Shown piece after piece: positions 1,336 to 17,429 of a stretch of DNA of 64,000 nucleotides (position 1 is its first letter; every line of letters begins with the position of its first letter). Both the position numbers and the translations under genes were made by a program. A model generated the notes under the pieces. It was not told the origin of the DNA, ran no database searches, and was given only the letters and a program-made list of their open reading frames with translations. Source of the DNA: Mobilicoccus massiliensis (GTDB lineage Bacteria; Actinomycetota; Actinomycetes; Actinomycetales; Dermatophilaceae); the NCBI RefSeq assembly GCF_000826525.2, contig NZ_LN651326.1, positions 1 to 64,000 on the forward strand, read 5' to 3'.

Positions 1336-1570
1336 CAACAGCTCCCAGCAGATGACGCCCGAGCAGGAGCACGCGTTCTACGCCGACCCGCGCAACCAGG
1401 AGCCCCAGGGCCCCCCGCGGCGTCGCAAGCGCCCACTGAACACACCCGTCCCCGTGCGTTTCCCGGCAGACCTGCTCGAAGAGGTCAAGCGCGCGGCCGA
1501 GGCCGACGACCGCTCTGTCTCCGCCTGGATCCGCCGAGCTGTCGAGCACGAGCTGTCGCGCTCCGCCTGA
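1325..1570 (+). CDS. Ribbon-helix-helix antitoxin (BrnA-like)
   Basis: An 81-residue protein. After a charged N-terminal tail (residues 1-40) comes NTPVPVRFPADLLEEVKRAA, then DDRSVSAWIRRAVEHEL, the classic strand-helix-helix of MetJ/Arc-type repressors (VPVRFP as the DNA-contacting strand). It starts at an ATG inside the end of the upstream gene (11-base overlap), so the two are translationally coupled. The RHH domain is C-terminal. Expected role: binds the upstream toxin and represses the operon. Confidence 0.7.
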   Translation: MSTDNSSQQMTPEQEHAFYADPRNQEPQGPPRRRKRPLNTPVPVRFPADLLEEVKRAAEADDRSVSAWIRRAVEHELSRSA

Positions 1571-4213: not shown

Positions 4214-5461
4214 TCAGTGGGAGGCGGACACCGGACGGCGACGCGGCAGGGTCGCGCGGATCGTGAACACCTCACCGGGCTCGACCGCAAAGAGACCGCC
4301 GCAGGCGGTGACACGTCCCTCGAGTCCGCGCAGACCGCGCCCGCTGCCGTGGGCGCGCAGGGCCGCGTCCCGGCCGGCTCCCGCGGTACTGCTCAACCGC
4401 AGCCCGAGTTCGTCGACGCCCCAAGCGACCACGAGGTCGACGTGGCTGCCGCGACCGCCGTGCCGGAGCGCGTTCGCCAGGCCCTCCTGGACGAACCGGT
4501 AGGCGGCGTGGTCCTGATCCGCGGCGAGCGGGAACGGTCGGCCGCGGGCGTCCAGTCGGACCGTCACGCCGCAGGCGCGGGTCGAGCGCACAAGGCCGCC
4601 GATCGCGTCCAGTCGACCGAGCTCCACGAAATCCACACCGGCGTCATCGGCCGCCCGCGCACCACCCTCGGCAAGAAGTCCGAGCAGGCGACGCAACTCC
4701 TGCATCGATGACGTGCTCGTCGACTGGATCGCCTCCAGGGCCGCCAGCACGCGCGCATCGGAGTCGGGTTCGCCCGCCGCCACCGCCCGGGCGCCCGCCG
4801 CCTGCAGAGCGATGGCCCCCATCGAGTGGGACAGCGCATCGTGCAGCTCCCGGGAGAGCGCGAGCCGATCCTCCTGTCGGGCGAGACGGGCGCGCGTCGC
4901 GAGCGCCTCCTCGCGCAGGCGCGCGTTCTCCTCGGCGCGGAATCCGGAGCGTCCCGCCATCCACGTCAGCGACGTGATCACGCCCCACAGCGCGGCGGTG
5001 ACGGCGACTCCGGCCGCGTCCATGGCCACCAGCGTCGCCGCGTTCGCCGTGTTGAGCGCCCAGGCCGGCACGCAGCCCACCACGAACGGCAGCGCCGCTC
5101 GCAGCGGTAGGCGGCGCGCGGCGTCGAACAGGGCGATGGTCAGCGCGGTGAACGGCTGATACTCGGGCAACGTCACGCCCCAGAACACCGTGTAGGCGAG
5201 CGCCACGCAGAAGGCCCACCCCGTACGCCCTCGCAGCACGGCCAGACCGCCGTAGGTGAGCAGTCCACTCGCCACGAGAACCCACAGCGGGAGCTCGCCT
5301 CCCCAGCGCAGGGTCGTCCCGCCGCTCCACATCGTCAGGTCGAGGACGAACGCGGCGGCGAACAGGGCGATCGTCAGTGCGGTGCGGGAGGGTCGCCGTC
5401 CTGGGTGGTTGCGCACGACGGCTAGCGGCACCCCCGGCATCCCGGCCAGATCCGGCACCAC
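4214..5461 (-). CDS. Sensor histidine kinase (NarL/DesK type, HisKA_3)
   Basis: 415 residues. About four to five membrane helices (27-170) precede a coiled linker rich in Arg/Glu (175-200) and the dimerisation box LSRELHDALSHSMGAIALQA with phospho-acceptor His207. The HATPase_c part follows: the N-box FVQEGLANALRHG near 325 and the glycine box GSGRGLRGLEGRV near 378. It is the partner of the LuxR-type regulator 470 bases upstream. The GTG at 5461 overlaps the preceding ORF by 40 bases. The ATG at 5440 is an equally good start. Confidence 0.9.
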   Translation of the reverse strand: MVPDLAGMPGVPLAVVRNHPGRRPSRTALTIALFAAAFVLDLTMWSGGTTLRWGGELPLWVLVASGLLTYGGLAVLRGRTGWAFCVALAYTVFWGVTLPEYQPFTALTIALFDAARRLPLRAALPFVVGCVPAWALNTANAATLVAMDAAGVAVTAALWGVITSLTWMAGRSGFRAEENARLREEALATRARLARQEDRLALSRELHDALSHSMGAIALQAAGARAVAAGEPDSDARVLAALEAIQSTSTSSMQELRRLLGLLAEGGARAADDAGVDFVELGRLDAIGGLVRSTRACGVTVRLDARGRPFPLAADQDHAAYRFVQEGLANALRHGGRGSHVDLVVAWGVDELGLRLSSTAGAGRDAALRAHGSGRGLRGLEGRVTACGGLFAVEPGEVFTIRATLPRRRPVSASH

Positions 5462-5931
5462 CAGGGCCGGCGGGCCGGCGACGGTCGTGGGCGCCTCGTG
5501 TAGCCGGTCGCCTCCGGCTTCTCGGGCGGAGGGGCCGTGTCGCGGGCCTCGTGATCGGCCAGGAAGCGTTCGAGGTCGTCGAACTCGGACTCCGGCGTGC
5601 CCAGGGCCGGAGCGGGCAGCTTCTCCGGCGTCTCCGCGATCGGCATGTCGAGTTCGAGGGCCACCGCGTCCTCGGGAACGCCGTCGTTCGGCAGCACGAC
5701 GCTGCCGTCCACGACGTAGCGCGCGAACGGAGTGTCGACGGCGACACGCGCCCGAGTGGCCTCCCGTCGCCTCCGCAGCGCGCAGGCCGTCTTCGGGTGA
5801 AGGACGACGAAGTCTGTCGCGGCGAGCACGCCGGCCCCCAGGTAGGGTCCGGTCCGCTCTCCGGAGAGGGCCCAGACGCTCACCCGGTAGCCCGCTCCCG
5901 GTGGCTGCGGATCGGATACGTATTCGGTCAC
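5422..5931 (-). CDS. Unknown protein, possible degenerate trypsin-like fold
   Basis: 169 residues, GTG start overlapping the response-regulator stop as GTGA, so translationally coupled. The middle reads SVWALSGERTGPYLGAGVLA, then ATDFVVLHPKTA, and later DAVALELDMPIAE. This order (GxLxxxxFVLxxxxA, then DVALLELDxP) recalls S1 peptidases, but the catalytic histidine segment (TAAHC) reads LHPKTA and no GDSGG motif is present. The C-terminus is Pro/Arg-rich and probably only partly real. Sitting between regulator and kinase genes, it may be an accessory input protein. The fold call is speculative. Confidence 0.55.
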   Translation of the reverse strand: MTEYVSDPQPPGAGYRVSVWALSGERTGPYLGAGVLAATDFVVLHPKTACALRRRREATRARVAVDTPFARYVVDGSVVLPNDGVPEDAVALELDMPIAETPEKLPAPALGTPESEFDDLERFLADHEARDTAPPPEKPEATGYTRRPRPSPARRPWWCRIWPGCRGCR

Positions 5932-6647
5932 GGTTTCTCCTTCGTGGAACGTGCGCCTCCCGGCGCGCTCGGCACGAGCCCGGAACGGAAGGCGAGCACG
6001 ACGGCCTGCGTGCGGTCCCGGGAATCGGTCTTCATGAGAATGCGAGAGACGTGCGTGCGGACCGTCGCCTCGCTGACGAAGAGTCCACGGGCGATCTCCG
6101 CGTTGCTCAGCCCGTCCGCGAGGAGGGTGAGGATCTCGAGCTCGCGCTCGGTGAGGCCTGCCAGGCGTTCGCCCAGCGTGGCGCGATCCGGGGGGTTCGC
6201 CCGCCGCAGCGCGTCGATGACGGGAGTCGTGACCGTCGGGTCGAGCCAGCCCCGACCGGCGGCGATCGTGCGAATCGCGGCCGGGAGATGCAGCGGCGCG
6301 GAGTCCTTGACGATGAAGCCGCTCGCGCCCGCGTGCAACACCGCGAGCACGGTCTCGTCGTCACCGAACGTCGTGAGTGCCAGCACCCGCGGCGTCGCGC
6401 CGTCGAGGGCGGAGTCGTCGATGATCGCCCGCGTCGCCTGCACCCCGTCGAGGCCGGGCATGGACAGGTCCATGAGGACGACGTCGGGGCGCAGCTCGCG
6501 CGCCGCGGCCACGGCGTGCAGCCCGTCCGCGACGGCGCCGGCCACTTCCAGGTCCGGATGGGCCGACACGAGCATCTCGATGCCGCTGCGCACCATCGCG
6601 TCGTCGTCGACGACGAGGACGCGCGTGACCCCGATCGGATCGCCCAT
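5928..6647 (-). CDS. LuxR/NarL-type response regulator
   Basis: 239 residues. The receiver domain has the acidic cluster DDD (14-16), the phospho-acceptor Asp60 in VVLMDLSMPGLDG, the conserved Thr in LALTTF and the Lys in FIVKDS. The GerE helix-turn-helix occupies the C-terminal third (LTERELEILTLLADGLSNAE, then IARGLFVSEATVRTHVSRIL). The start at 6647 is preceded by an AAGGGG ribosome site; the longer open frame has no receiver homology. It is the first gene of a three-gene cluster with an unknown ORF and the cognate histidine kinase. Confidence 0.95.
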   Translation of the reverse strand: MGDPIGVTRVLVVDDDAMVRSGIEMLVSAHPDLEVAGAVADGLHAVAAARELRPDVVLMDLSMPGLDGVQATRAIIDDSALDGATPRVLALTTFGDDETVLAVLHAGASGFIVKDSAPLHLPAAIRTIAAGRGWLDPTVTTPVIDALRRANPPDRATLGERLAGLTERELEILTLLADGLSNAEIARGLFVSEATVRTHVSRILMKTDSRDRTQAVVLAFRSGLVPSAPGGARSTKEKP

Positions 6648-6712
6648 GACGAATTCCCCTTGCGCCGTGCGCTTATGCCAAGCATGAGGTGGATGGGGGT
6701 CGCGGTCAACGA

Positions 6713-6758
6713 CGACGGGGGCGGTGGCCGGCCGTCCCTCCGACCATCGCCCCCGTCG
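6713..6758. terminator. Hairpin between two minus-strand genes
   Basis: Perfect 11-bp arms CGACGGGGGCG / CGCCCCCGTCG separated by 24 bases, located 37 bases beyond the stop of the small secreted-protein gene. It is likely its terminator, although no T-run follows. Confidence 0.5.
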
Positions 6759-6795
6759 CCCGAGACCCCCCGAGTTGCGAGCGTCTGCTCCGGGT

Positions 6796-7023
6796 TTACT
6801 CCGCGACCCAGGAACTTCCGTTCGCATCCACTGTGTGGTTGGTGAGCATGACCCCGCCGCTGTCGTTCGTGTAGCGGTAGTAGGTCTTGCCGTCGACCGT
6901 GCGTGTCGAGTGCAGCTTCCACCCGTCTGCGGCCGACGCGGACTCCGCCGTCGCCACCGACAGCCCACCGAGACCCACCAGCGCCACCATCGCGGCGGCC
7001 ACCATCCTCTTCTTCATCTCCAC
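6796..7023 (-). CDS. Small secreted protein
   Basis: 75 residues. It has a textbook signal peptide (MEMKKRMVAAAMVALVGLGG, then LSVATAESASA) with cleavage near residue 31. The mature part of about 43 residues (KLHSTRTVDGKTYYRYTNDS and following) has no cysteines and ends in WVAE. A GGGGGATGTG purine stretch lies just before the ATG. I do not recognise the family. It resembles the small exported proteins often placed near two-component systems, and the kinase cluster is next to it on the same strand. Confidence 0.65.
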   Translation of the reverse strand: MEMKKRMVAAAMVALVGLGGLSVATAESASAADGWKLHSTRTVDGKTYYRYTNDSGGVMLTNHTVDANGSSWVAE

Positions 7024-7226
7024 ATCCCCCTCCTGATGACGGTGATCCGGGTGATCACCGTGCTTCGAAGGTAGGAAACGGGGCAGGGTCGATGCGTCGG
7101 CCGCGCTACGTATCCGCGCGTACGTCGGCAGGCGTACGTCGCCGCGGTCACATCGGCGCCCGGGCGGGGGACGCCGGCCGGCTTATCGACGGCCCCGGAC
7201 GCAGCTCTCTCGAACGACCCTGACCC

Positions 7227-7257
7227 TCAATTCTTTTTGAATATCAATCAGATTTGA
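7227..7257. promoter_or_regulatory. Two MarR-type operator sites in an AT-rich promoter
   Basis: Two copies of the inverted repeat TCAA-N6-TTGA (7227-7240 and 7244-7257), 17 bp centre to centre, in an AT-rich island immediately upstream of the MarR gene. Binding by that regulator is inferred from position and symmetry. Confidence 0.65.
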
Positions 7258-7271
7258 GTAACCATCACGTC

Positions 7272-7793
7272 ATGGAGAACGGACCGCAGGCGCCGCAGGA
7301 CGAAACGCGGGCGATCGCCTTCGGCCTCCAGCGGATCCTCTTCCTCGCCAACCAGACGGAGCGGGAGGTGGGGCGGCTCCTCGGTCTCAGCGCGACGGAC
7401 TATCGAGCCCTGTCGACGCTCATGCAGGCAGGGCCGATGACCGTCGGCGAACTGGCGAGTGCCGTCGGCGCGACCTACGCGACGACCACGGCCCTGGCCA
7501 CTCGGCTCGAGGCCGCAGGCCACGTCCGGCGCGCACGGGACGACGCCGATCAACGCAAGGTGCGGTTGCACGTCGAACCGGCCACGGCTGCGCGGGTGCT
7601 CGACCTCATGCGCTCTCCGATGGAGGCCACGACGACTTACGTCGCCGACCTGCCCGACTCCGACCGCGCAGCCGTGGCCGCGTTCACCACGACCGTGGCC
7701 GGCGCCCTCGCCGATCACCTGCGCACCCTCACCGACATCTCCGAGCCCGACGCCTGCCCCCGTCGCTCCCCGACCCGGAAGGACCGTCCATGA
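7272..7793 (+). CDS. MarR-family transcriptional regulator
   Basis: 173 residues. Winged helix: LLGLSATDYRALSTLMQAGP, MTVGELASAVGATYATTTAL (recognition helix), then ATRLEAAGHVRRARDDADQR, where the DxR wing signature of MarR proteins is clear (DDADQRK). I prefer the ATG at 7272; a TTG at 7254 overlaps one of the operators. The stop overlaps the next ATG as ATGA, so it is co-transcribed with a flavin monooxygenase and an SDR. It probably represses the operon until a phenolic or similar ligand is bound. Confidence 0.9.
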   Translation: MENGPQAPQDETRAIAFGLQRILFLANQTEREVGRLLGLSATDYRALSTLMQAGPMTVGELASAVGATYATTTALATRLEAAGHVRRARDDADQRKVRLHVEPATAARVLDLMRSPMEATTTYVADLPDSDRAAVAAFTTTVAGALADHLRTLTDISEPDACPRRSPTRKDRP

Positions 7794-9196
7794 CGATGCG
7801 GGATGACACCGCGCCGACCCACCCCTCCCCCGCCGAGCCGAACGACGTCATCGTCGTCGGCGCCGGGCCGGTCGGTCTGGCCTCGGCGCTGCTGCTGGCG
7901 CAGCAGGGACGAACCGCCACCGTGTACGAGAGCCGGGACGAACTGCTGCTCACCGACGAGAACAGCTACCCGATCGGGGTCAACGTGCGCGGCCAGGAGG
8001 CGCTGCGCCGCATCGATCCTGCTCTCCTGCACGCCTTGCGCGACACGGGGGAGCTCGTCGAGGGGTTCGTCATCCGCAACGGCACCCGGACCGTCGCGAA
8101 GCTCCCCTCGGGCACGCTCATCGGGACGACCAGGGCCCGCCTCACCCGCATCCTCTTCGATGCCGCCGGCAGAGAGCCGCGGATCCGAATCGTCACCGGC
8201 CACCGGCTGCGCACCCTCGACCGCGACGCCCGGCGCCTGGATTTCACGACATCCGCCGACGAGTCGGTCACCGTCGACGCGAGCCGCGCGATCGTGCTGG
8301 CCTGCGACGGCGTGTGGTCCCCGGCCCGCGCCTCCCTCGCCAAGTCGGTGACTGGGTTCGACCCGGTCGTCGGGGACTGGGGCGTGCAGTTCCGCGTCCT
8401 GTTCTCTCAGGCCGGAGCGACGGCGCCCGGCCTGGACCCCGCGCAGCACCACATCTTCACGAGCAACGGCATCTACACCGCCACCCTGCCGAACGGCATC
8501 TGGTGCATCGCAGTGACGGCGATCAAGGGCGACCCGGCCGAAGGCCTGCTCCTCGCCACGGACGCCACCGACGAGAACGTCGCCGCCCTGCGCGCCCACC
8601 TCGCCGAGCACGCCCCGCTCGTCCCACCGCTGCTGCGCGAGCAGGACTACCGGGCCTACTTCTCCCGCAAGCCCTTCGGCGGCGCGGTCGTCCGGTGCTC
8701 GCGCATCGCGTTCGACGAATGGCTCGTCCTGCTCGGCGACGCTGCGCACAGCGTCATCCCGCCCACGGGCGAGGGCGTCAACTCCGGGTTGGAGGACGCG
8801 TTCCTCGTCGCCGACGCGCTCGCGACCGATTCGCCCACACCCCTGGCCGACTTCGAGCGGGACCGCTTACCCGACCTGGAGGCGCTCGGCGAGTACGCGT
8901 GGCAGCTCAAGGAGAACCTGCGGACCACCGACCCGGTCGAGACCGCGAGCAACGTCATCGTGCGGATCCTCTCGAGCGTCGCCGCCCGCTTCGGCCGGCG
9001 TGACGGCGAGGTCGAGCAGCGCCTGTTCGGTCCCGACGCCGACCTCACCCGCTACGCCGAGACGATCGGCCCGTGGATCGCGTTCCGCGACCGCTGGACC
9101 CCCGTGGCCCGCACTGCCGTCCGCGGCGTGCTCGGCGTCCGGCCGGCCGTGCGCCGCGTCATCACCCGCATCCGTCAGCAGAAGGGACAACCGTGA
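7790..9196 (+). CDS. FAD-dependent aromatic-ring-type monooxygenase
   Basis: 468 residues of the group A flavoprotein monooxygenase family (kynurenine 3-monooxygenase/PHBH-like). Visible: the dinucleotide motif VIVVGAGPVGLASALLL at about 20-36, the DG-type motif around LACDGVWSPAR, and the second FAD motif LVLLGDAAHSVIPPTGEGVN near 315-335. The substrate is unknown. It overlaps the MarR stop (ATGA) and its own stop overlaps the next gene's GTG. The arrangement suggests a MarR-controlled oxidation of an aromatic or polyketide-like compound. Confidence 0.85.
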   Translation: MTMRDDTAPTHPSPAEPNDVIVVGAGPVGLASALLLAQQGRTATVYESRDELLLTDENSYPIGVNVRGQEALRRIDPALLHALRDTGELVEGFVIRNGTRTVAKLPSGTLIGTTRARLTRILFDAAGREPRIRIVTGHRLRTLDRDARRLDFTTSADESVTVDASRAIVLACDGVWSPARASLAKSVTGFDPVVGDWGVQFRVLFSQAGATAPGLDPAQHHIFTSNGIYTATLPNGIWCIAVTAIKGDPAEGLLLATDATDENVAALRAHLAEHAPLVPPLLREQDYRAYFSRKPFGGAVVRCSRIAFDEWLVLLGDAAHSVIPPTGEGVNSGLEDAFLVADALATDSPTPLADFERDRLPDLEALGEYAWQLKENLRTTDPVETASNVIVRILSSVAARFGRRDGEVEQRLFGPDADLTRYAETIGPWIAFRDRWTPVARTAVRGVLGVRPAVRRVITRIRQQKGQP

Positions 9197-9807
9197 ACAT
9201 CACCATCGTCGGCGCCTCGTCGGGCACCGGAGCAGAACTCGCCCGTGAGGCGCTCGTGCGGGGCCACGCGGTCACCGCGATCTCCCGCAGCGGCAACGTG
9301 CCGGAAGGGGTCACGGCCGTCACCGGCGACGCGACCGACCCGGCCGTGGCGCGCCGCGCCATCGACGGCGCGGACGCGGTGTTCGTCACCGTCGGCGGCT
9401 CCAAGGGCGCCCAGAATCCCCGCACCGCCGTGACGCGATCCGTCATCGCCGGCATGCAGGAGCCCGGCGTACGTCGGCTGCTCGTGCAGACCTCCCTCGG
9501 CGCGGGCGGCTCGGCCCGCCAGTTGCCGTGGCCGCAAAGCGTGCTCGCTCCGCGCATCCTCGCCGGCCCCCTGGCCGACCACGACGCCCAAGAGGATCTC
9601 GTACGCGCCTCCGGGCTGGACTGGACCATCGTGCGCCCGGCCGGACTCACCAACGGCACGGCCACCGGCGCCTGGCGGGCGCTGCGCAGCACCGACCCGG
9701 GCCGGGTCAAGGGCCGCATCTCCCGCGCCGACGTCGCCGGCTACCTGCTGCACTGCCTCGACTACCCCGCCACCGTCGGGGCAGAGATCGGGCTCAGCAA
9801 GGACTGA
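9193..9807 (+). CDS. NAD(P)-binding atypical short-chain reductase
   Basis: 204 residues with an N-terminal Rossmann motif ITIVGASSGTGAELAREAL (glycines at 7, 11, 13) and the atypical-SDR order typical of NmrA/YwnB-like NAD(P)H-binding proteins (WTIVRPAGLTNGTATGAWRA near 155-175). No YxxxK catalytic pair is seen. The GTG start overlaps the TGA of the monooxygenase. It is the last gene of the MarR operon and may act on the oxidised product or on quinones. Confidence 0.8.
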   Translation: MNITIVGASSGTGAELAREALVRGHAVTAISRSGNVPEGVTAVTGDATDPAVARRAIDGADAVFVTVGGSKGAQNPRTAVTRSVIAGMQEPGVRRLLVQTSLGAGGSARQLPWPQSVLAPRILAGPLADHDAQEDLVRASGLDWTIVRPAGLTNGTATGAWRALRSTDPGRVKGRISRADVAGYLLHCLDYPATVGAEIGLSKD

Positions 9808-10185
9808 CGGCGCGCCCCGCGGCCCGGCGTCCGGCCGTTCGTCGGAATGGACAGCGGCAAAGTCTTGCGCCTGTTCAAGCGCCCAGCCTTCATGTCGTGC
9901 ACGCCGAAGCGACCGCCGCGGCCGTTGAGATCCTCCACCGCGCCGCCCGCATCAACGCCGTCGATCCATCCATCGCGAAAGCCAGCTCTGGAAGATCACC
10001 CGGACCGGCGAACTCCTCTCCGAGTCGCCCTGTTCCAGGGCGAGGCGCACTATGCACGTCGTAGGTGGTCTGCACAGCTGACCCAGCCCGTGCACGGATG
10101 ACAGGCCCGCCCCGTGCGTCATTGCCGCTCAACCGTTTGTCATCGCCACCGGCGAGAACTCCCTGATAACCTGTCATCAATCGTT
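9808..10185. other. Intergenic leader with candidate structured RNA
   Basis: No convincing protein gene. Several short inverted repeats are visible: GCCCTG-TTC-CAGGGC (10027-10041) and GCACGG/CCGTGC (10092-10117). TGTCAT occurs at 10138-10143 and 10171-10176, and its complement ATGACA at 10098-10103. With the terminator-like hairpin that follows and the Abi gene behind it, a small RNA in the last 100-150 bases is plausible. Confidence 0.35.
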
Positions 10186-10224
10186 CAGCCCGCCCGGTTC
10201 GCCGGTGCGGGCTGGATCTCTTTT
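10186..10224 (+). terminator. UUCG-capped hairpin plus T-run, directly before the Abi gene
   Basis: CAGCCCGC-CCGG-TTCG-CCGG-T-GCGGGCTG: an 8-bp outer and 4-bp inner stem, one bulged T and a UUCG tetraloop, followed by GATCTCTTTT (10215-10224). This is the best intrinsic-terminator shape in the window, yet it lies only 6 bases before the first GTG of the downstream gene. It would end a transcript made upstream, or attenuate the Abi mRNA. Confidence 0.75.
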
Positions 10225-10229
10225 CGGGG

Positions 10230-11225
10230 GTGGTGGCGGTGGCGACGGTCAAGCCGTACACGACCGTCGACGAGCAGGTCGCGCTGTTGCAACGTCGCGG
10301 GATGGTGCTCGACCCGTCGGACGCGTCCCATTGGCTTCGCGCGGTGGGGTATTACCGGCTCAGTGGCTATTGGTATCCGTGGAGACTCCCCGGCTCCGCC
10401 GACACATCGAGACGATCGGACGACTTCGCCCCCGGCACGCGATTCGCCGATGTCGTGGCCCTGTACGAGTTCGACCGCAAACTGCGCACGCTGTTGCACG
10501 ACGGCATCGAACGCATCGAGGTGGGCCTGCGCGCGCACGTCGGCGACCTGCTGGCCGCCAAGGCCCCGCTCGCGTACCGCGACCCCGGCACATTCCGTCC
10601 GACGTTCGACCACCGACGCTGGCTGACGACCGCCCGGCAACGCGTGGCTCGGGCCTCTCGGCACCACACCGCGCTGCAGCACCATCAGCGTGCCTACGGC
10701 GGAGACCCACCGGTGTGGATCCTCACCGACGTCCTGGACTTTCGAGACACGTCGATGCTGTACGCCGGGCTGCGCACCGAGGACCAGTGGACGATCGCGG
10801 ACGCGCTCGGCGTGCATGTCGATCTCGGAGCGCTGCAGGGCAATCAGCGCGAGAAGGCGCGCCGCTCGCACCCCCTGACCCGGTGGTTCGAGCAGCTCAC
10901 GGTGATCCGCAACAGCGTCGCGCACCATGCCCGCGTCTGGAATCGCTCGTTCGTCCCGGCCAGTACCGCCGCCCTCCGCGCCGTCCCGGGACTCGAAGAA
11001 CTCCCCGAAGGGCAGAGCGAGCAGCTTTACGGCGCGCTCACGCTCATGGGTGTCCTCATCGAGTCACTCTCCCCGGGAACGTCCTGGCCCGAACGCGTCG
11101 AACGCCTCTTCACAGAGGAGTTCGACACGATCCCCGGCCGTAGCCGCACCGAGATCGGGTTCCCGACGGACATCACAGCCCCCCAGCACCTCCCGCGGGT
11201 GGAGTTGCCTACCCCTGCCGCCTGA
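10230..11225 (+). CDS. Abi_2-family abortive infection protein (HEPN type)
   Basis: 331 residues. The N-terminal LRAVGYYRLSGYWYPWR motif is the signature of Abi_2 (AbiD/AbiF) proteins. A second block, FDRKLRTLLHDGIERIEVGL, follows near 85-105. The HEPN RNase motif R-x4-H appears as R227-NSVA-H232 in VIRNSVAHHARVWNRSF. Family members block phage propagation, and HEPN proteins of this type are presumed RNases. Three GTG codons (10230, 10233, 10239) could start it; GTG 10239 is best spaced from GGGGG. The upstream hairpin suggests RNA-level control. Confidence 0.85.
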   Translation: MVAVATVKPYTTVDEQVALLQRRGMVLDPSDASHWLRAVGYYRLSGYWYPWRLPGSADTSRRSDDFAPGTRFADVVALYEFDRKLRTLLHDGIERIEVGLRAHVGDLLAAKAPLAYRDPGTFRPTFDHRRWLTTARQRVARASRHHTALQHHQRAYGGDPPVWILTDVLDFRDTSMLYAGLRTEDQWTIADALGVHVDLGALQGNQREKARRSHPLTRWFEQLTVIRNSVAHHARVWNRSFVPASTAALRAVPGLEELPEGQSEQLYGALTLMGVLIESLSPGTSWPERVERLFTEEFDTIPGRSRTEIGFPTDITAPQHLPRVELPTPAA

Positions 11226-11251
11226 TCGACCTGTGACGCAGGGTCCTGGCC

Positions 11252-11374
11252 ATGGGGGTTGGTGACGCCGTCCTCCGGCCGACGGTGCGCATGCTCGGGG
11301 TGGACCCGGCGGCCGCGACGTCGATCTCACGCCGCGACCTGCCGGATCTGCCCGAGTACACGGCGTGGGCCTGA
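11252..11374 (+). CDS. Short ORF, possible gene remnant
   Basis: 40 codons from ATG 11252: MGVGDAVLRPTVRMLGVDPA, then AATSISRRDLPDLPEYTAWA and TGA. The composition is protein-like, but no ribosome site stands out and no family is recognised. It may be the surviving C-terminus of a lost gene between the Abi gene and the convergent flavodoxin gene. Confidence 0.25.
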   Translation: MGVGDAVLRPTVRMLGVDPAAATSISRRDLPDLPEYTAWA

Positions 11375-11399
11375 GCCCGATCCGCCGAGCCGGGCGTTG

Positions 11400-12065
11400 T
11401 CATCGCTTTCGTCGCAGTTGCCCGGCCAAGTCGGCGCCCCACGCTCGGATCGCGTCGAAGTCCCGGAAGTCGCCGGAGGTGTCGTTGCCCGCGAATCCCC
11501 GGTAGACCAGTCCGTTGATCGGAGCCATGCGGCCGTAGTCGAGGAACCCACCGAAGGGACGCATCGCGATCGGTGTGAGCGACGGGGCCTGCCGGGCCAC
11601 CTGTTCGAGGATCGCGCGCTTCGCCCGATCCTGCCGGGCGCGATCCGGGTCGATGCCGTAGCTCATCGACGTGAGGAACAGCGCCACCGGGATCTGCCTT
11701 AGACGATCGGCGTGACCGGAGAGGAACGCCGTCGCCTCCTCCTTCCAGGCATCCCGATGAACCGGGGCCCCGAGAACCGCCGCCTGGTATCGGTCGAGAT
11801 CGATGCCCTCCCCGACCCGGCGAACCTCCGAACGCCATCCGGCGGCGCCGAACTCGTCGGCGATGGCGACCGCGACGTCGCCCGTGCTGCCGTACGCGGA
11901 GTCGTATCCGACGAGAACGTGACGACCGTTGCCCGGCCCGCGGTCGCCGTGCGCGAACGACGGCGTCGGCCCCGACGCTGCCCACACCCCGACCCCGGCG
12001 AGGGCGGCAGCTGCGGCGCCGCCCGTCAGCAGGGTTCGACGACTGACCTCGGGGTGCCCGCTCAT
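11400..12065 (-). CDS. Exported flavodoxin-domain protein
   Basis: 221 residues. The N-terminus has a twin-arginine signal (SRRTLLTGGAAAAALAGVGV). The mature part is a flavodoxin: VLVGYDSAYGSTGDVAVAIA is the FMN phosphate loop, AAVLGAPVHRDAWKEEATAF the second FMN contact, and IPVALFLTSMSYG follows. It resembles HemG/protoporphyrinogen-oxidase-like flavodoxins but is exported, so a cell-envelope redox role is likely. It overlaps the upstream DUF1772 gene by ATGA, so the two probably act together. Confidence 0.8.
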   Translation of the reverse strand: MSGHPEVSRRTLLTGGAAAAALAGVGVWAASGPTPSFAHGDRGPGNGRHVLVGYDSAYGSTGDVAVAIADEFGAAGWRSEVRRVGEGIDLDRYQAAVLGAPVHRDAWKEEATAFLSGHADRLRQIPVALFLTSMSYGIDPDRARQDRAKRAILEQVARQAPSLTPIAMRPFGGFLDYGRMAPINGLVYRGFAGNDTSGDFRDFDAIRAWGADLAGQLRRKR

Positions 12066-12649
12066 GCCGGCACCTCCGCATCGACGCGCCGGACGCCGAA
12101 GGCGAGCGCGGTGAGGAGCAGCGCCGCACCGCTGACGGCGGTGCGAGTGATGTTGCCCATCTGCCAACTGGCCGAGTAGTCGGTCCAGATCGTCCGCGCG
12201 GTCTCGGCATCGAGCGGGCCGGTGTGCGCGGCGAGCCCCGTGTTGAGGGGCACGTTGTAGGCGAGGGTGAGGCCGACGCCCCCGACCGCGTAGAGCACGG
12301 TGGCGGCGACGAAGAGCAGCGAGGCGCGTCGGCGTCGCGCCCCGTGCGCGGCCAGGGCGGCCGCCAGACAGATCGGCGCGGTGCCGAAGAACACGGTCCC
12401 GAACACCGGGTTGCGGACCGAGGCGTTCATGGCCTGCATGGCCTCGATCGCGGTTGTAGAGGCGATCCCGTCCAGCCCCCACATCGTCGAACACACCCAG
12501 GCGTAGAAGAAGCCGAAGATCGCCCCGGTGAACAGGACTGCGAACAGTCCGAGCAGGTCGGCCATCCACCGAATCGAGTCAGGTGGGGCAGCCGTCCTGA
12601 GTGGAGATGGGGCCGGATTCGGCGTCGAGGTCGAGGTGAACAGCGTCAT
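12062..12649 (-). CDS. DUF1772 (anthrone oxygenase-like) membrane protein
   Basis: 195 residues with four predicted membrane helices: LLGLFAVLFTGAIFGFFYAW, an AICLAAALAAHG-like segment near 115, SLLFVAATVLYAVGGVGLTL with the NVPLN motif, and a C-terminal helix ALLLTALAFGV. YNVPLN and the W-x-x-Y-x-x-W pattern (IWTDYSASW) are typical of DUF1772. I chose the ATG at 12649, which has a GGAGA site. It is the first gene of an operon with the exported flavodoxin and diverges from a TetR gene. Confidence 0.8.
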   Translation of the reverse strand: MTLFTSTSTPNPAPSPLRTAAPPDSIRWMADLLGLFAVLFTGAIFGFFYAWVCSTMWGLDGIASTTAIEAMQAMNASVRNPVFGTVFFGTAPICLAAALAAHGARRRRASLLFVAATVLYAVGGVGLTLAYNVPLNTGLAAHTGPLDAETARTIWTDYSASWQMGNITRTAVSGAALLLTALAFGVRRVDAEVPA

Positions 12650-12669
12650 GATGTCTCCGCTCGTCGAAG

Positions 12670-12713
12670 CGTACTGATCCGTACGGTTATGAGTATTCGT
12701 ACGCATCGGTACG
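12670..12713. promoter_or_regulatory. Pair of TetR operators CGTAC-N6-GTACG
   Basis: Two 16-bp inverted repeats with identical arms, CGTAC-TGATCC-GTACG (12670-12685) and CGTAC-GCATCG-GTACG (12698-12713), 28 bp centre to centre, in the gap between the divergent DUF1772 and TetR genes. They almost certainly control both genes. Confidence 0.8.
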
Positions 12714-12721
12714 CTGACAAG

Positions 12722-13369
12722 GTGAGCTCACCAAGATCAGGGTCGCGTCGGGGACGTCCCCGAGCCGCGGACGTCCCCGCACGCCAGACCGCCGTTCTGA
12801 AGGCCGCACTGACCGAGCTGCAGAGCTCCGGGTGGGGCGGGTTCACGATGGAGGCCGTGGCCCGCCGGGCGGGAGCGTCGAAGGAGACCCTGTACTCGTG
12901 GTTCGGGAACAGGGACGGCCTCGTTCGTGCGCTCATCCGGCGCAATGCCGAAAGCTCCCTGGAGACCCTCACTGCGGGCCTGGAGTCGAGCGGTTCCCTG
13001 GAGACCGTCCTGCAGCAATACGCCTACGAACTGCTGACCTTGCTCACCGGTCCCGCCTCCGTCGCGCTCAATCGCGCCGCGATGACCTCCCCGGATCTCG
13101 CACAGGCTCTGCGCAGCGAGGGTCGGCACCGCGTCGGCCCTCTCGTCGAGGCGTTCCTGGCCGAGCACACCCGCGCGGGCCGGATCGACTGCCCGGATCC
13201 GGGGGGCGCGTTCGCAGTGCTCTACGGCCTCGTCGTGCGAGACACCCAGATCGAGGTGCTTCTCGGTGCCGACCCGCCCACCGATATCCAGCGCCGAGCC
13301 CGGGCCGATGAGGCGATCACCGCTTTTCTCCGCCTCTACGCGCCCCGAGACCACCCCGACGGCGAGTGA
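12722..13369 (+). CDS. TetR-family transcriptional regulator
   Basis: 215 residues. HTH at about 20-65: VLKAALTELQSSGWGGFTME, AVARRAGASKETLYSWFGNR. The C-terminal part fits the TetR_C family used by AcrR-like repressors (a region following PDLAQALRSEGRHRVGPLVE). I favour the GTG at 12722, because an ATG at 12689 would put coding sequence across the operator pair. It divergently controls the DUF1772/flavodoxin operon. Confidence 0.9.
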   Translation: MSSPRSGSRRGRPRAADVPARQTAVLKAALTELQSSGWGGFTMEAVARRAGASKETLYSWFGNRDGLVRALIRRNAESSLETLTAGLESSGSLETVLQQYAYELLTLLTGPASVALNRAAMTSPDLAQALRSEGRHRVGPLVEAFLAEHTRAGRIDCPDPGGAFAVLYGLVVRDTQIEVLLGADPPTDIQRRARADEAITAFLRLYAPRDHPDGE

Positions 13370-13413
13370 CTCGAGCCAGAGAACCGCGTCCGACGCAGGG
13401 ACCGCCCGAAACT

Positions 13414-13526
13414 CGCGCAACAATGACCGGTCACTCACGTGCGACTTCTAACCCGCCGAGGCGTCACGCCTGGTCAGCGGCCTGCGTCCCTACCGCGCCC
13501 CGCGCGTGACCGGTCTTTGTTGCGCG
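13414..13526. repeat. Inverted-repeat element, copy 1 (113 bp)
   Basis: Ends are 20-bp inverted repeats: CGCGCAACAATGACCGGTCA (13414-13433) and TGACCGGTCTTTGTTGCGCG (13507-13526), one mismatch, with a 73-base interior. A second element with the same ends and nearly the same length lies at 14796-14909. Each end contains the palindrome TGACCGGTCA or a one-base variant. It looks like a small non-coding mobile or REP-type element. Confidence 0.75.
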
Positions 13527-13644
13527 AGATCTCGAGGCGCCCCCACAGCCGTGCCTCGACCCGCCTCGACCAGGCCATATGCGCCCACGTGTCGCGCCGC
13601 TGCCCTGGGCACGGCATTCTCGACACCGCTCACTGTCGGGAGCG

Positions 13645-13748
13645 GCCGCCGCATGATGAGCCCCCGCCCCAACCATGAGCCTCCCCGCCTGACCCCGCCG
13701 CCGCATGATGAGCCCCCGCCCCAACCATGAGCCTCCCCGCCTGACCCC
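13645..13748. repeat. 52-bp perfect tandem duplication
   Basis: Two identical adjacent 52-bp units (13645-13696 and 13697-13748), beginning GCCGCCGCATGATGAGCCCC and ending CCTCCCCGCCTGACCCC, directly upstream of the epimerase-like gene. The unit's end (CTCCCCGCCTGACC) also occurs at 14881-14894, next to the right end of the second inverted-repeat element, so the two repeat types share ancestry. Copy number may vary. Confidence 0.9.
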
Positions 13749-13761
13749 TTGACCAGGAGTG

Positions 13762-14700
13762 ATGACACCCGTGCAAACCATCCTCGGCGCGAACGGCCCG
13801 ATCGGCGAGGAGCTCGCTCGCGAGCTGCATCGCCGCTTCACCCATGACATCCGCCTGGTCGGGCGCAAGCCGGCCAAGGTCAACGACGGCGACGAGTTGG
13901 TCGTCGCCGACCTCACCGACCCCGAGGCCACCGAGCGTGCCGTCGCCAGCAGCGAGATCGCCTACCTCACGGTCGGTCTCCCGATGGATTCGGCATTGTG
14001 GGAGCAGAAGTTCCCCGTCATGATGCGCAACGTCATCGACGCCTGCGCCACGCACGGCACCAAGCTCGTGTTCTTCGACAACACCTACATGTACCCGGGC
14101 ACGCCCACCCCGCAGACGGAGTCGATCGCCTTCGCACCCAACGGCCGCAAGGGCCGCGTGCGTGCGCGGCTCGCGACGATGCTCCTCGACGCGATGGCCG
14201 AGGGCCGCCTGGAGGCGCTGATCTGCCGCGCACCGGAGTTCTACGGCCCGGGCAAGACCAAGAGCCTGACGAACTCCCTCGTCTTCGACCGCATCGAAGC
14301 GGGCAAGATTCCCCTCGTGCCGGTCAGCGCCCGCACCCGTCGTTCGCTGATCTGGACCCCCGATGCGAGCCGGGCCATGGCGTTGCTCGGCAACACCCCG
14401 GACGCCTACGGGCAGACCTGGCATCTGCCGATCGACCCGGACCGCATGACCTACGCCCAGCTCATCCACATTGCCGGCGAGGTCACCGGCCGACGCATCC
14501 GCTACGTCGTGCTGCCCGAGCTCCTGCTCACCCTCGGGGGCCGCGTCAACGCCCAACTGCGCGAGGTCACAGAACTGCTGCCGCGCTACCGAGGTGACAA
14601 CGTCTTCGACGCTTCGGCGTTCACCGCTCGATTCCCCGACTTCCCCGTGACGACGTACCGAGAGGGCATCACCGAACTCCTCACCCGAGGCGGTAGGTGA
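13762..14700 (+). CDS. NAD-dependent epimerase/dehydratase-family protein
   Basis: 312 residues. N-terminal Rossmann motif ILGANGPIGEELARELHRRF. Later LVFFDNTYMYPG provides the extended-SDR active-site tyrosine region, although the usual YxxxK is not clear, and RAPEFYGPGKTKSLTNSLVF is the substrate-side segment of NAD-epimerases. Starts compete: ATG 13762 lies too near AGGAG (13755-13759), and GTG 13771 gives MQTILGANG with longer spacing. It stands alone between two inverted-repeat elements, which suggests it moves or was captured as a unit. Confidence 0.8.
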   Translation: MTPVQTILGANGPIGEELARELHRRFTHDIRLVGRKPAKVNDGDELVVADLTDPEATERAVASSEIAYLTVGLPMDSALWEQKFPVMMRNVIDACATHGTKLVFFDNTYMYPGTPTPQTESIAFAPNGRKGRVRARLATMLLDAMAEGRLEALICRAPEFYGPGKTKSLTNSLVFDRIEAGKIPLVPVSARTRRSLIWTPDASRAMALLGNTPDAYGQTWHLPIDPDRMTYAQLIHIAGEVTGRRIRYVVLPELLLTLGGRVNAQLREVTELLPRYRGDNVFDASAFTARFPDFPVTTYREGITELLTRGGR

Positions 14701-14795
14701 CCTCACCTCCACCGTCACAGAGGCGCTCGCCCCCGCCCGCCTGCGCGTGTCATCGGAGGGATCGCATCCCCAAGGTCGCGGGTCGCGCGCTACCC

Positions 14796-14909
14796 CGCGC
14801 AACAAAGACCGGTCAGTCTCTCCCACCTGATGAGGCCGTACCCCCGTGACCAGCACTGATGTCTGACGCGGCCACTGCACCTCCCCGCCTGACCGGTCTT
14901 TGTTGCGCG
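14796..14909. repeat. Inverted-repeat element, copy 2 (114 bp)
   Basis: Perfect 20-bp inverted ends CGCGCAACAAAGACCGGTCA (14796-14815) and TGACCGGTCTTTGTTGCGCG (14890-14909) around a 74-base interior. The right end is identical to that of copy 1 at 13507-13526. The interiors differ substantially. Together the two elements bracket the epimerase-like gene. Confidence 0.8.
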
Positions 14910-14970
14910 ACATCTGCGCAGACCAGCAGGCAGCCCGTGGCGGCTCTCATCGCCACGGGCCATCTGGGTC

Positions 14971-15372
14971 TCACGCGCGGCGGTGACGACCGAGCAGAAC
15001 TCCCACACCGGTTCCGATGGCCGCAGGCACCCCGACGAGCCCGATGACGAAAGGGGTGAGGCCGATGAAGTCGGCCGAGAGGACACCCGCATCGAGCCCC
15101 GCCACCAACCCCTGAGCCATGACGGCGCTGGCGACGCCGACCAGCACCCCGACCGCCAACCACCGCAGGAACGTCGGCCCGAAACGCGCCGACCTGCGTC
15201 CGTCGAGGAGCGACCAGAGCAGCGTGACCACGATGACGATGACGAAGGCGAGCAGGCCGGCCCCGATGTTCGCTCCGACGCTCTCGTCACCCAGGTCGAC
15301 CAGCCACGCCGTGAGAGCGGCCAGTGCGACGACGACGACGGCTCTTACCACGACCGCGATGACCTCATGCAT
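14971..15372 (-). CDS. Four-helix membrane protein of unknown function
   Basis: 133 residues almost entirely in four hydrophobic helices: VIAVVVRAVVVVALAALTAW, GAGLLAFVIVIVVTLLWSLL, WLAVGVLVGVASAVMAQGLV and LTPFVIGLVGVPAAIGTGVG. A short charged loop (DGRRSARFGPTF) joins helices 2 and 3. The C-terminus GRHRRA is basic and cytosolic. There is no catalytic signature. It resembles small actinobacterial integral membrane proteins of undefined role. It is transcribed away from the following DUF4126 gene. Confidence 0.65.
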   Translation of the reverse strand: MHEVIAVVVRAVVVVALAALTAWLVDLGDESVGANIGAGLLAFVIVIVVTLLWSLLDGRRSARFGPTFLRWLAVGVLVGVASAVMAQGLVAGLDAGVLSADFIGLTPFVIGLVGVPAAIGTGVGVLLGRHRRA

Positions 15373-15617
15373 TCACCCATGTTTCCAGCCTCGACCGCCG
15401 GTCGCCGTCCGACACGCGTGACGCCGGTCGATGCGCCGTGATCCCGATTCGAACGGGGCACCCCGCAGCACCGTGCCGGGTCCCACCCCGGGAATCGACA
15501 CCGCGTGTGCGATGTTGATACGGAGTCCGGGTGCGGCCCGGGCCCCGCGGCGGGTCGCCGATCTCGACTCGGTTCGCACCGATACACGGTCGGTGCGACT
15601 CACCCGATCGGAGTCAC

Positions 15618-16211
15618 ATGGGAGCCGAACTCCTCGCCTGGTCGTTCACCTCGGGCTGGGCCAGCGGCATCAACGCGTACGCGGTGGTGCTGGTCATGGG
15701 CCTCATCGAGCGGTTCTGGCAGATCACCGAGATCCCCGACGTGCTCGCCCGCACCGACGTGCTCATCGTCGCCGGGGTGTTGTTCCTGTTGGAATCCGTC
15801 GCCGACAAGATTCCGTACCTCGACTCGGCGTGGGATGCGATCCACCTCGCGGTGCGGCCGGTCGTCGGCGCGGCGCTCGGCTACCTCATCGGCGCCGAGC
15901 AGTCGACGTCGCTCGCGGCTGCTCTCGCCGCGACCGGAGGCATCACGGCGCTGCTCGCGCACCTCACCAAGGCCGGCGTGCGCGCGGGGGTCAACCTCTC
16001 CCCTGAGCCGGTGAGCAACGCCGTCGTCAGCGTCACCGAGGACGCCACGGTCGTCGGTGTCGTCGGGCTCGCCGCCGCGTTCCCGCTGGTCGCCGCAGGG
16101 ATCGCCGGGGTTCTGCTGCTGGCGGGGATCGTCGTCGGGATCCTCGTGGCCAGGGCGGTCATGCGACTGCGTCGGCGCCGCCGCGACGCCGCCATGGCCG
16201 ACCGGATCTGA
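15618..16211 (+). CDS. DUF4126 membrane protein
   Basis: 197 residues. SGWASGINAYAVVLVMGLIE at the N-terminus and LESVADKIPYLDSAWDAIHL, then VRPVVGAALGYLIG in the middle are the family hallmarks of DUF4126. Helices alternate with an AALAATGGITALLAHLTKAG segment, and the last helix ends in an Arg-rich tail (LRRRRRD). The function is unknown; it is integral to the membrane. The ATG at 15618 follows GGAG. It is probably monocistronic. Confidence 0.8.
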   Translation: MGAELLAWSFTSGWASGINAYAVVLVMGLIERFWQITEIPDVLARTDVLIVAGVLFLLESVADKIPYLDSAWDAIHLAVRPVVGAALGYLIGAEQSTSLAAALAATGGITALLAHLTKAGVRAGVNLSPEPVSNAVVSVTEDATVVGVVGLAAAFPLVAAGIAGVLLLAGIVVGILVARAVMRLRRRRRDAAMADRI

Positions 16212-16427
16212 TCTTCGGGCCCCACCGCCACCCGTCGACACGCACCACGACCCCGCTACGCGCGCCGGGCGAGGCTCCCGGCGTTCCCTCGGTTCGCCAC
16301 GAACGTAGAAACCAGGACCGGCCTCGCCACACCGCGTTCCGATCTGGACGTGATGTCATTCCGGGGTGATCGACACCCTCCGCCCGGCCACCTGCAAGGC
16401 CCGGGCGAACATCTCCGGGTTCCGCCC

Positions 16428-17429
16428 ATGAAACGGCCCCCGCCGGCGGCCGCGCCCTCGCCCTCGACCGGCCCCGCTCCGCAGCGCATTCCGTGGCAGC
16501 TCAAGTTCGTTCTCCTCGCGCTCATCTGGGGATCGAGCTTTCTGCTCATGAAATTCGGTCTGCTCGCGCTCGCGCCGGTTCAGATCGCCGCGATCCGCAT
16601 CTGGTCGGGGGCCCTCACCGTCCTCGTGCTGCTGCGGCTCTCGGGCGGCAGGCTCCCGCGGGGCAGGCGAGTCTGGGCGCATCTCACGGTGGCCGGCTTC
16701 TTTCTCACCGCGCTGCCGTTCACGTGTTTCGCACTCGGCGAGACCCGCGTCTCCTCGGCGCTCGCGGGCATCGGCAACTCGTTCACGCCGATCGCGATGG
16801 TGCTCGTGGCCCTCGTCCTCATTCCCGCCGAACGGGTGACCCGCCCCAAGCTGTTCGCGATCGGCCTCGGGTTCGTCGGGGTGCTCGTCATCAGCGAGTT
16901 CTGGGCCGTGCAGGCCCGCCCTGATCCCCTGGGGTTCGGGCTGACCGTCGCGGGCGGCACGTGCTACGGCATCGGCTGGCCCTACCTGCGACGACACCTC
17001 GGGCACGTCGATCTGGGAGGGCTGTCTCAACCGGCTGCCCTGCTCGTCGCCGGCTCCGTACTCGTGCTGCCGATGACGCTCGCGTGGTGGTGGCTCACCC
17101 CGCAGTTCGCGGCCCCGTGGTCGACCCTGCCCGCCGCGACACCGTTCGACGTGTGGGTCGCGATGCTCGCGACGCTCGTCCTCGGGGCCATCGGAACGGG
17201 ATTCGCCTACACCCTTCAGTTCGACATCGTGCGCGCCGCGGGCACGGTCATCGGCTCGACCGTCACCTACGTCATCCCCGTCGTGTCGGTCGTCCTCGGC
17301 GTTCTCGTGCTCGGCGAGAACCTCGACGCCCCGCAGCTCGCCGGTTTCGCACTCGTCCTCACCGCGGCGCTCATCATCGGCCGCCCTGCCGCCGGCTGGC
17401 GGGCGTTGCTGCGTCGGCGCAGACGCTGA
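16428..17429 (+). CDS. EamA-family (drug/metabolite) transporter
   Basis: 333 residues with ten membrane helices in two EamA repeats. The first begins FVLLALIWGSSFLLMKFGL and contains FALGETRVSSALAGIGNSFT. The second begins GGTCYGIGWPYLRRH and ends with PVVSVVLGVLVLGENLDAPQ, the usual exit motif. The ATG at 16428 is chosen because the upstream frame lacks homology and the N-terminal tail (KRPPPAAAPSPS) is short and cytosolic. The substrate is unknown; family members export amino acids or metabolites. Confidence 0.85.
   Translation: MKRPPPAAAPSPSTGPAPQRIPWQLKFVLLALIWGSSFLLMKFGLLALAPVQIAAIRIWSGALTVLVLLRLSGGRLPRGRRVWAHLTVAGFFLTALPFTCFALGETRVSSALAGIGNSFTPIAMVLVALVLIPAERVTRPKLFAIGLGFVGVLVISEFWAVQARPDPLGFGLTVAGGTCYGIGWPYLRRHLGHVDLGGLSQPAALLVAGSVLVLPMTLAWWWLTPQFAAPWSTLPAATPFDVWVAMLATLVLGAIGTGFAYTLQFDIVRAAGTVIGSTVTYVIPVVSVVLGVLVLGENLDAPQLAGFALVLTAALIIGRPAAGWRALLRRRRR

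Follow-up and report, generated by a model that had tools for sequence, protein, structure and literature searches.

The type III toxin-antitoxin systems ToxIN, CptIN and TenpIN combine an RNA antitoxin, a terminator and a toxin RNase gene in one transcript, and the antitoxin RNAs of ToxIN type are pseudoknot units, whereas the RNA analyzed here is a hairpin. PDB entry 8VZ6 is PbAbiF, a HEPN RNase solved with its inhibitory ncRNA. In C. difficile, abiF and the RNA RCd22 share a promoter and a transcript, most of the transcription stopping at a terminator before the gene; RCd22 neutralizes AbiF in trans through direct binding, and HEPN mutants of this AbiF lose toxicity (PMC12373285). A review describes one AbiFr per PbAbiF monomer and bulge nucleotides that inhibit the RNase (PMC12737573). 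In the same review and a further article, Cas13 is proposed to descend from AbiF-like proteins, its crRNA handle perhaps deriving from their RNAs (PMC12165695; PMC12737573).

We analyzed a 64,000-nucleotide stretch of Mobilicoccus massiliensis DNA (the window, to which all positions refer unless a locus is named), in which a sequence-only reading had placed a gene for an Abi/HEPN protein behind a hairpin. This gene was borne out (Table 1): its product matches Pfam PF07751 (E 5.5e-45, 154.4 bits, cut-off 25.6) and PADLOC AbiD (7.2e-51), and is the only Abi_2 match in its own genome. It keeps the HEPN catalytic motif RNxxxH, which aligns with the RN...HH stretch of 8vz6, and the R, N, A, H and H of the RNxxAHH motif are invariant among 21 aligned homologues. 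Searched against solved structures, the single sequence retrieved 8vz6 (E 9.4e-27) and one other row at E 1.8, and the profile of its clade retrieved 8vz6 alone (1.2e-61). The AlphaFold2 model (pLDDT 92.2) likewise had 8vz6_A as its sole Foldseek match at E <= 0.001 (E 2.6e-15, TM 0.73/0.80), so that the window protein shares the PbAbiF fold. It is thus a member of the known Abi_2 (AbiD/AbiF) HEPN family, a HEPN protein rather than one of ToxN fold.

Table 1. Features of the abi_2 locus in the window.
Feature	Position	Strand	Basis
Predicted extended -10 promoter element, TGA TAACCT (-10 at 10167-10172)	10164..10172	+	conservation
Hairpin RNA, ~46 nt, proposed antitoxin	10179..10225	+	R1 match, covariation
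Predicted ends of the hairpin RNA	5' near 10179; 3' in U-run 10221-10224	+	
Outer stem, 5' arm (GUUCAGCCCGC)	10183..10193	+	folding, covariation
Inner stem and loop (CCGG UUCG CCGG), variable in sequence yet paired in homologues	10194..10205	+	covariation
Single bulged U, 3' side, between inner and outer stem	10206	+	minimum-energy folds
Outer stem, 3' arm (GCGGGCUGGAU)	10207..10217	+	folding, covariation
Pyrimidine-rich tail CUCUUUUC, imperfect intrinsic-terminator tail	10218..10225	+	U count
GGGGG, possible Shine-Dalgarno for the start at 10239	10226..10230	+	read from sequence
Abi_2 (AbiD/AbiF-type) HEPN ribonuclease gene, proposed toxin	10230..11225	+	Pfam, PADLOC, PDB 8vz6 by sequence and fold
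Start codon candidates of the Abi_2 gene	GTG 10230, 10233 or 10239	+	

The hairpin directly before the gene is strong: the region 10175-10230 folds at -30 kcal/mol (z -4.35), and none of 200 shuffled sequences was equally stable. It had been described as a perfect UUCG hairpin of 8 + 4 bp; its strength stands, while the stem comprises 11 + 4 bp, the inner pairs joining 10194-10197 with 10202-10205, and is interrupted by the bulged U. This bulge at the junction of the two stems recurs, with one unpaired nucleotide on the 3' side in 26 of 29 minimum-energy folds of homologous loci and two in the other three. The loop varies among homologues and is closed in the window by G-C; the especially stable tetraloop cUUCGg is closed by C-G. 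The tail holds on average 4.55 U per 8 nt (29 loci), and the distance of six bases to the first possible start codon was read correctly, the U-run stopping at 10224 before the first GTG. Taken as a bare terminator pattern, such a hairpin is in no excess over chance (two sites in 5000-17000 against a mean of 2.5 in shuffled sequence); its meaning rests on comparison.

The same reading had taken a structured leader of 220 nt for the RNA and the hairpin for its terminator. Without the hairpin, the leader (10005-10172) shows no excess structure (z -0.73; 50 of 200 shuffles as stable). It is not conserved either: across 29 loci, conservation stays at ~0.1 bit per position between -240 and -20 relative to the RNA, rises to 0.48 between -20 and 0, and reaches 1.48 in the initial 20 nt of the RNA, meaning that the conservation expected among homologous loci holds strongly for the hairpin and fails for the leader. 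At the DNA level, a query of 9790-11420 against 99 genomes of the family, its own included, gave two short matches in the leader, of 39 nt (G002) and 62 nt (G1165). By contrast, a -10 motif, TAnnnT, lies 6-7 nt before an invariant AA in 28 of the 29 loci, L109 being the exception, compared with 23 of 1276 shifted control positions, and in 12 of the 29 a TGn also precedes it; eight duplicates and the weak rows L121 and L122 had been removed from this set, in which the near-copies L100/L101 and L097/L116 remain. Given that this conserved element separates the leader from the hairpin, the hairpin itself would be the RNA, and the position of the element together with the conservation profile indicates that the RNA most likely starts there. 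The conserved unit thus begins at the -10 element and consists of the hairpin, with the leader outside.

An antitoxin of ToxIN type in the leader, with the hairpin as mere terminator, would match the order of leader, terminator-like hairpin and toxin gene, and the window locus would share with ToxIN, CptIN and TenpIN the order of RNA, terminator and toxin. Unlike ToxIN, however, it lacks tandem repeats, with no family of direct repeats found in 9808-10240, and it encodes a HEPN/Abi_2 protein. On the absence of conservation, of excess structure and of direct repeats we rejected the leader as the RNA; with the conserved promoter element preceding the hairpin as well, this model is scarcely credible. 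An alternative pairing of 9999-10013 with 10197-10211 was judged a chance match, one of its arms lying inside the unconserved leader. The GC-rich spacer at 9811-10160, which follows an NAD(P)H-binding gene, contains frames that resemble a decayed gene fragment by eye. Repeat scans revealed no Cas13-like array, spacer or guide function at the window locus. Elsewhere in the window lie a short tandem array of a 9-bp unit in about ten copies (2-100), a perfect tandem duplication of 52 bp that closely precedes an epimerase-like gene (13645-13748), and several imperfect arrays of period 21 (35756-37792).

We fetched 80 homologous loci by protein, and all ten with 45-59% identity (L004-L013) carry the same RNA element directly before the gene, which in two of them, L004 and L013, is interrupted. 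As RNA, the element consists of the -10, 6-7 nt, AAYMGUUCAGCCYGC, a variable, bulged inner stem, the outer stem and a GAUYUCU-like tail, followed by the gene; as DNA, it reads TAnnnT, 6-7 nt, AA[TC][CA]G[TG]TCAGCC[CT]GC, a stem-loop that varies, then G[TC]GGGCTG (in two rows ACGGGCTG instead) and mostly GAT[CT]TCT. A covariance model built from the window and these ten homologues, named R1, finds the window at 10177-10222 (62 bits, E 5.8e-11), the window being itself one of the 11 rows. Run on genomes with stricter filters, by which some weak matches were lost, R1 hit 4 of 394 genomes of the class and 27 of 396 of the order, including the window's own.

The 39 aligned matches, among them the weak L121 and L122 (35.5 bits), reduce to 29 distinct rows. 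In these, 95.9% of the cells of the 16-pair stem are paired, compared with 83.8% after shuffling, and 53 cells show double changes, compared with 12.4, in an alignment that was fitted to the R1 model and so favors the structure. When the partner columns are offset by one to three, pairing falls to 24-52%, and a MAFFT alignment of the first 11 rows gave a similar picture over 13 pairs (97.2% against 82.9% paired; 20 against 6.0 double-change cells). Three stem positions are G-U in most rows, which favors an RNA over a DNA palindrome. A palindrome serving as an autorepression operator, or a chance terminator of the upstream gene, would agree with the inverted repeat that closely follows the -10 element and with a density of such matches expected by chance. 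Against these explanations stand the G-U positions, the conservation of AA and the following bases 5' of the stem, the unconserved upstream sequence (29 loci) and upstream genes that differ among three plasmid homologues; we regard them as very improbable.

The R1 RNA is closely linked to one clade of Abi_2 proteins. Of the 396 order genomes, which to judge by their handles are those of the R1 search, 93 have an Abi_2 match, and 19 of these group tightly at E <= 3.8e-112, the next place following at 1.6e-79. All 19 genomes with a gene of this clade have the R1 RNA, compared with 8 of the 377 others. Among the matches listed (71 of 110 for L123-L232), 18 of the 19 loci have the RNA closely preceding the gene, and in the 19th, L139 (G955), the gene stands at a contig end and the RNA on another contig. 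Viewed from the RNA, 21 of 29 loci (L094-L122, comprising the window's own and some duplicates) have an Abi_2 match, in L109 only to the contig end; L097, L103, L107, L114, L115, L118, L121 and L122, which account for 8 of the 27 RNA-bearing genomes, have no adjoining clade gene. L122 is probably a false positive, since it adjoins a tRNA-like stretch (by eye) and has no -10 element, and the stem of L121 is broken. The other six orphan RNAs appear intact or nearly so, and may be remnants or have a separate function. Matches to a gene in L103 (E 0.20) and L107 (E 0.055) are no better than reversed-sequence controls (best 0.039), and their position makes them possible remnants. A possible gene trace in L114 was seen by eye. 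In L097, the intact RNA (1501-1550, minus strand) lies ~200 nt before another gene whose product presumably resembles a Swt1-type HEPN protein (by eye); the idea that an orphan RNA feeds another toxin was set aside, this being a single case.

RNA and clade gene also occur together on prophages (L153, L154) and plasmids (L233-L235). One clade gene, in a relative from the same family (L238, G1117), lacks the RNA; it is truncated at its 5' end, no part of the locus matching approximately the first 42 residues. On plasmid L236 (38% identity), R1 gave no match better than E 0.41. Viral L231 (48% identity over a short stretch), which has no R1 RNA, was rejected as an RNA-less clade member: its protein is 95% identical to that of L173, in another clade, and it carries the hairpin of that clade. 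In the abi_2 gene of L231 (2995-5465), an interruption of ~1.7 kb separates the N-terminal from the C-terminal part. We built a tree of 82 Abi_2 proteins, some of them fragments of fewer than 210 residues; the 24 with R1 RNA make up one side of a branch (100/97). Over all labels, RNA type requires 11 changes on this tree, compared with 46.8 when shuffled, the labels other than R1 and abiF being set by eye and groups II, IIb and V not being single clades. This distribution suggests that RNA and protein have, on the whole, been inherited together, the R1 RNA with its gene in many actinobacteria.

The same data bear on whether the hairpin could act only in cis, as an attenuator or 5'-UTR regulator of abi_2 read-through or translation, perhaps bound by a phage or host protein, with no separate antitoxin. 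The hairpin ends directly before the possible Shine-Dalgarno sequence, and AbiD1 of Lactococcus lactis, from the same protein group and likewise with structured RNA upstream, is reported to be controlled through its 5'UTR; this 5'UTR is described as restraining translation in cis until a phage protein lifts the control, and a short transcript that ended prematurely has been observed upstream of that gene (PMC12373285). Moreover, the tail and start region fold better with their own partner than when swapped between loci (0 of 300 swaps as low), a comparison in which relatedness is uncontrolled and for which the structures disagree between loci. For these two reasons we do not claim a second hairpin (CUCU...GGGG) masking the Shine-Dalgarno sequence. 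Against regulation in cis alone, the sequence of the flanks and of the outer stem hardly varies, a constancy beyond what a terminator needs; RNA type follows protein clade; orphan RNAs persist without the gene; and RNA binding is reported for both characterized relatives, PbAbiF and the AbiF of C. difficile (PMC12373285; PMC12737573). We therefore consider a purely cis-acting element unlikely, and favor an antitoxin RNA.

We then compared this RNA with abiF (Rfam RF03085). The window gave no match at gathering score, and 9700-10400 none even at E 10; five further R1 loci (L008, L005, L010, L153, L233) likewise had none at gathering score; in the window and these five, no family of Rfam 15 reached its gathering score. 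Membership of the window RNA in Rfam abiF was rejected on this failed covariance-model match. In contrast, the abiF RNA stands directly before the gene in 7 of 18 related loci scanned, and was the only family that the Rfam scans placed immediately ahead of genes from this protein group. An abiF-type covariance model of 19 rows, R2, matched 70 of the 82 non-clade loci (of 93) at E <= 0.002, as a rule ~80 nt or less from the gene match, was weaker in three (L038, L091, L092) and absent in nine. Neither model matches the loci of the other in that place: R2 was found before the gene in 0 of 11 R1 loci, a 17.9-bit row in L008 sitting elsewhere, and R1 at E <= 1 had no match in the 82 non-clade loci, its twelfth row being an opposite-strand echo. 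Judged by these matches, R1 and abiF-type RNAs are alternatives at that place. Extra abiF-type copies were seen upstream in tandem in L016 (3732-3969) and downstream of the Abi_2 gene in L022 (5220-5345), and two loci, L123 (G838:C1:673215-676599) and L136 (G1012:C13:45339-47716), have two adjacent same-strand Abi_2 genes with very different scores.

The window locus resembles AbiF-AbiFr modules. It has an Abi_2 HEPN protein of the same fold with RNxxxH and, by sequence and comparison, a small RNA directly upstream on the same strand; as in abiF loci, this RNA is a hairpin that follows a -10 element, immediately precedes the gene and has a U-rich tail. The RNAs themselves differ: in the window type the outer stem has 11 bp with CAGCCCGC, a single nucleotide usually bulges out on the 3' side and the inner stem varies, whereas abiF has a CCCGCC / GGCGGG outer stem, a 3-bp inner stem and a 6-nt 3' internal loop. 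There is one copy in the window, in contrast to the two motifs given for RCd22 (PMC12373285). The proposal of a small RNA before the toxin gene, akin to abiF, was well founded in that the RNA recurs in 10 of 10 close homologues and the protein matches PbAbiF. The window RNA is most likely a new family within the known AbiF-type kind of RNA antitoxins, its antitoxin action being predicted from this kinship. The open-access literature that we searched contained no description of it; an earlier account may exist in Weinberg 2017, which is said to concern abiF, or in Zilberzwige-Tal 2025, reportedly on PbAbiF.

Many actinobacterial and viral Abi_2 loci have neither R1 nor abiF. In the same position they show, by eye, other hairpins such as CATCACGATCAGCCCG...CGGGCTGATTTTCTTT and GACCGGTTCCGC...GTCCAGGGCCGGTC; no Rfam family reached gathering score in 16 loci, 12 with other hairpin kinds and four of the R1 clade. 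Inspection of L253-L280 and L142-L152 by eye indicated at least five further hairpin types before other Abi_2 clades, none of them found in Rfam where scanned; one of these types, GACCGGUUCCGC...GUCCAGGGCCGGUC, is common. We used a generic pattern (a -10, a stem of at least 6 pairs and a U-rich tail), written after the upstream hairpins of these loci had been viewed. It matched 24 of 32 loci, compared with 8 of 883 windows drawn at random from these loci; the set consisted of the viewed loci except for five R1 loci and the near-copy L157, with L014, L021, L042 and L084 added, and the misses were L149, L156, L158, L163, L164, L170, L182 and L186. Unchanged, the pattern matched 38 of 40 held-out upstream regions, many from related genera and so not 40 independent cases. 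In controls it matched 2 of 40 windows lying farther upstream, and 34 of 800 sequences obtained by dinucleotide shuffling. The held-out loci came from the best 45 Abi_2 rows without a locus, of which five were left out, four for a missing N-terminus or late start and one as an apparent near-copy; many of the rows ranked below these 45 are partial. The two misses, L283 and L288, carry abiF RNA, with the -10 outside the 140-nt window by reading. In the 43 loci scanned, R2 was present in 13, and R1, weakly, in one (L253, E 0.064). These results suggest that most intact Abi_2 genes of the order are preceded by a promoter-driven, clade-specific hairpin. We lean, with some reserve, towards a wider view in which all Abi_2 HEPN ribonucleases would belong to RNA-antitoxin systems, their hairpin families having radiated as clade-inherited, clade-recognized and mutually orthogonal types, with abiF as one, the window RNA and at least five types as others, and the Cas13 handle arising from this library.

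Based on the sequence comparisons and on the analogy with AbiF, we propose, with a probability of about 80%, that the locus forms an RNA-antitoxin/HEPN-toxin module of AbiF type with a single promoter. In this scheme, in which we infer the transcript ends, termination, binding, neutralization, toxicity and phage defense at the window locus, RNA polymerase would start at ~10179, make the ~46-nt hairpin RNA and mostly stop in its imperfect U-tract, while occasional read-through, with the hairpin at the 5' end of the mRNA, would yield the Abi_2 protein. The free hairpin would bind the Abi_2 HEPN dimer and block its ribonuclease site, as in AbiFr/PbAbiF and RCd22/C. difficile AbiF, and as a terminator would also limit abi_2 expression in cis. 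Should the short RNA be lost, upon phage takeover or arrested transcription, the longer-lived protein would cut RNA and growth would stop. The recurrent 3' bulge might, by conjecture from AbiFr, be the RNase-inhibiting element. The sequence of the window RNA is unlike that of the abiF RNAs with demonstrated function, and its U-tract is weaker, by eye, than in abiF loci, so that termination may be poor.

AbiF and its RNA are proposed ancestors of Cas13. Besides abiF, the window locus defines a second, well-supported RNA family before genes of this protein group. If most intact Abi_2 genes of the order do have a hairpin of their clade, genes annotated as a lone "Abi family protein" would become complete RNA-antitoxin modules. 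R1 and the other hairpin-protein pairs would offer test material for how HEPN dimers recognize, and are silenced by, different RNAs, and the hairpins of Abi_2 genes material on how an antitoxin hairpin could turn into a guide handle.
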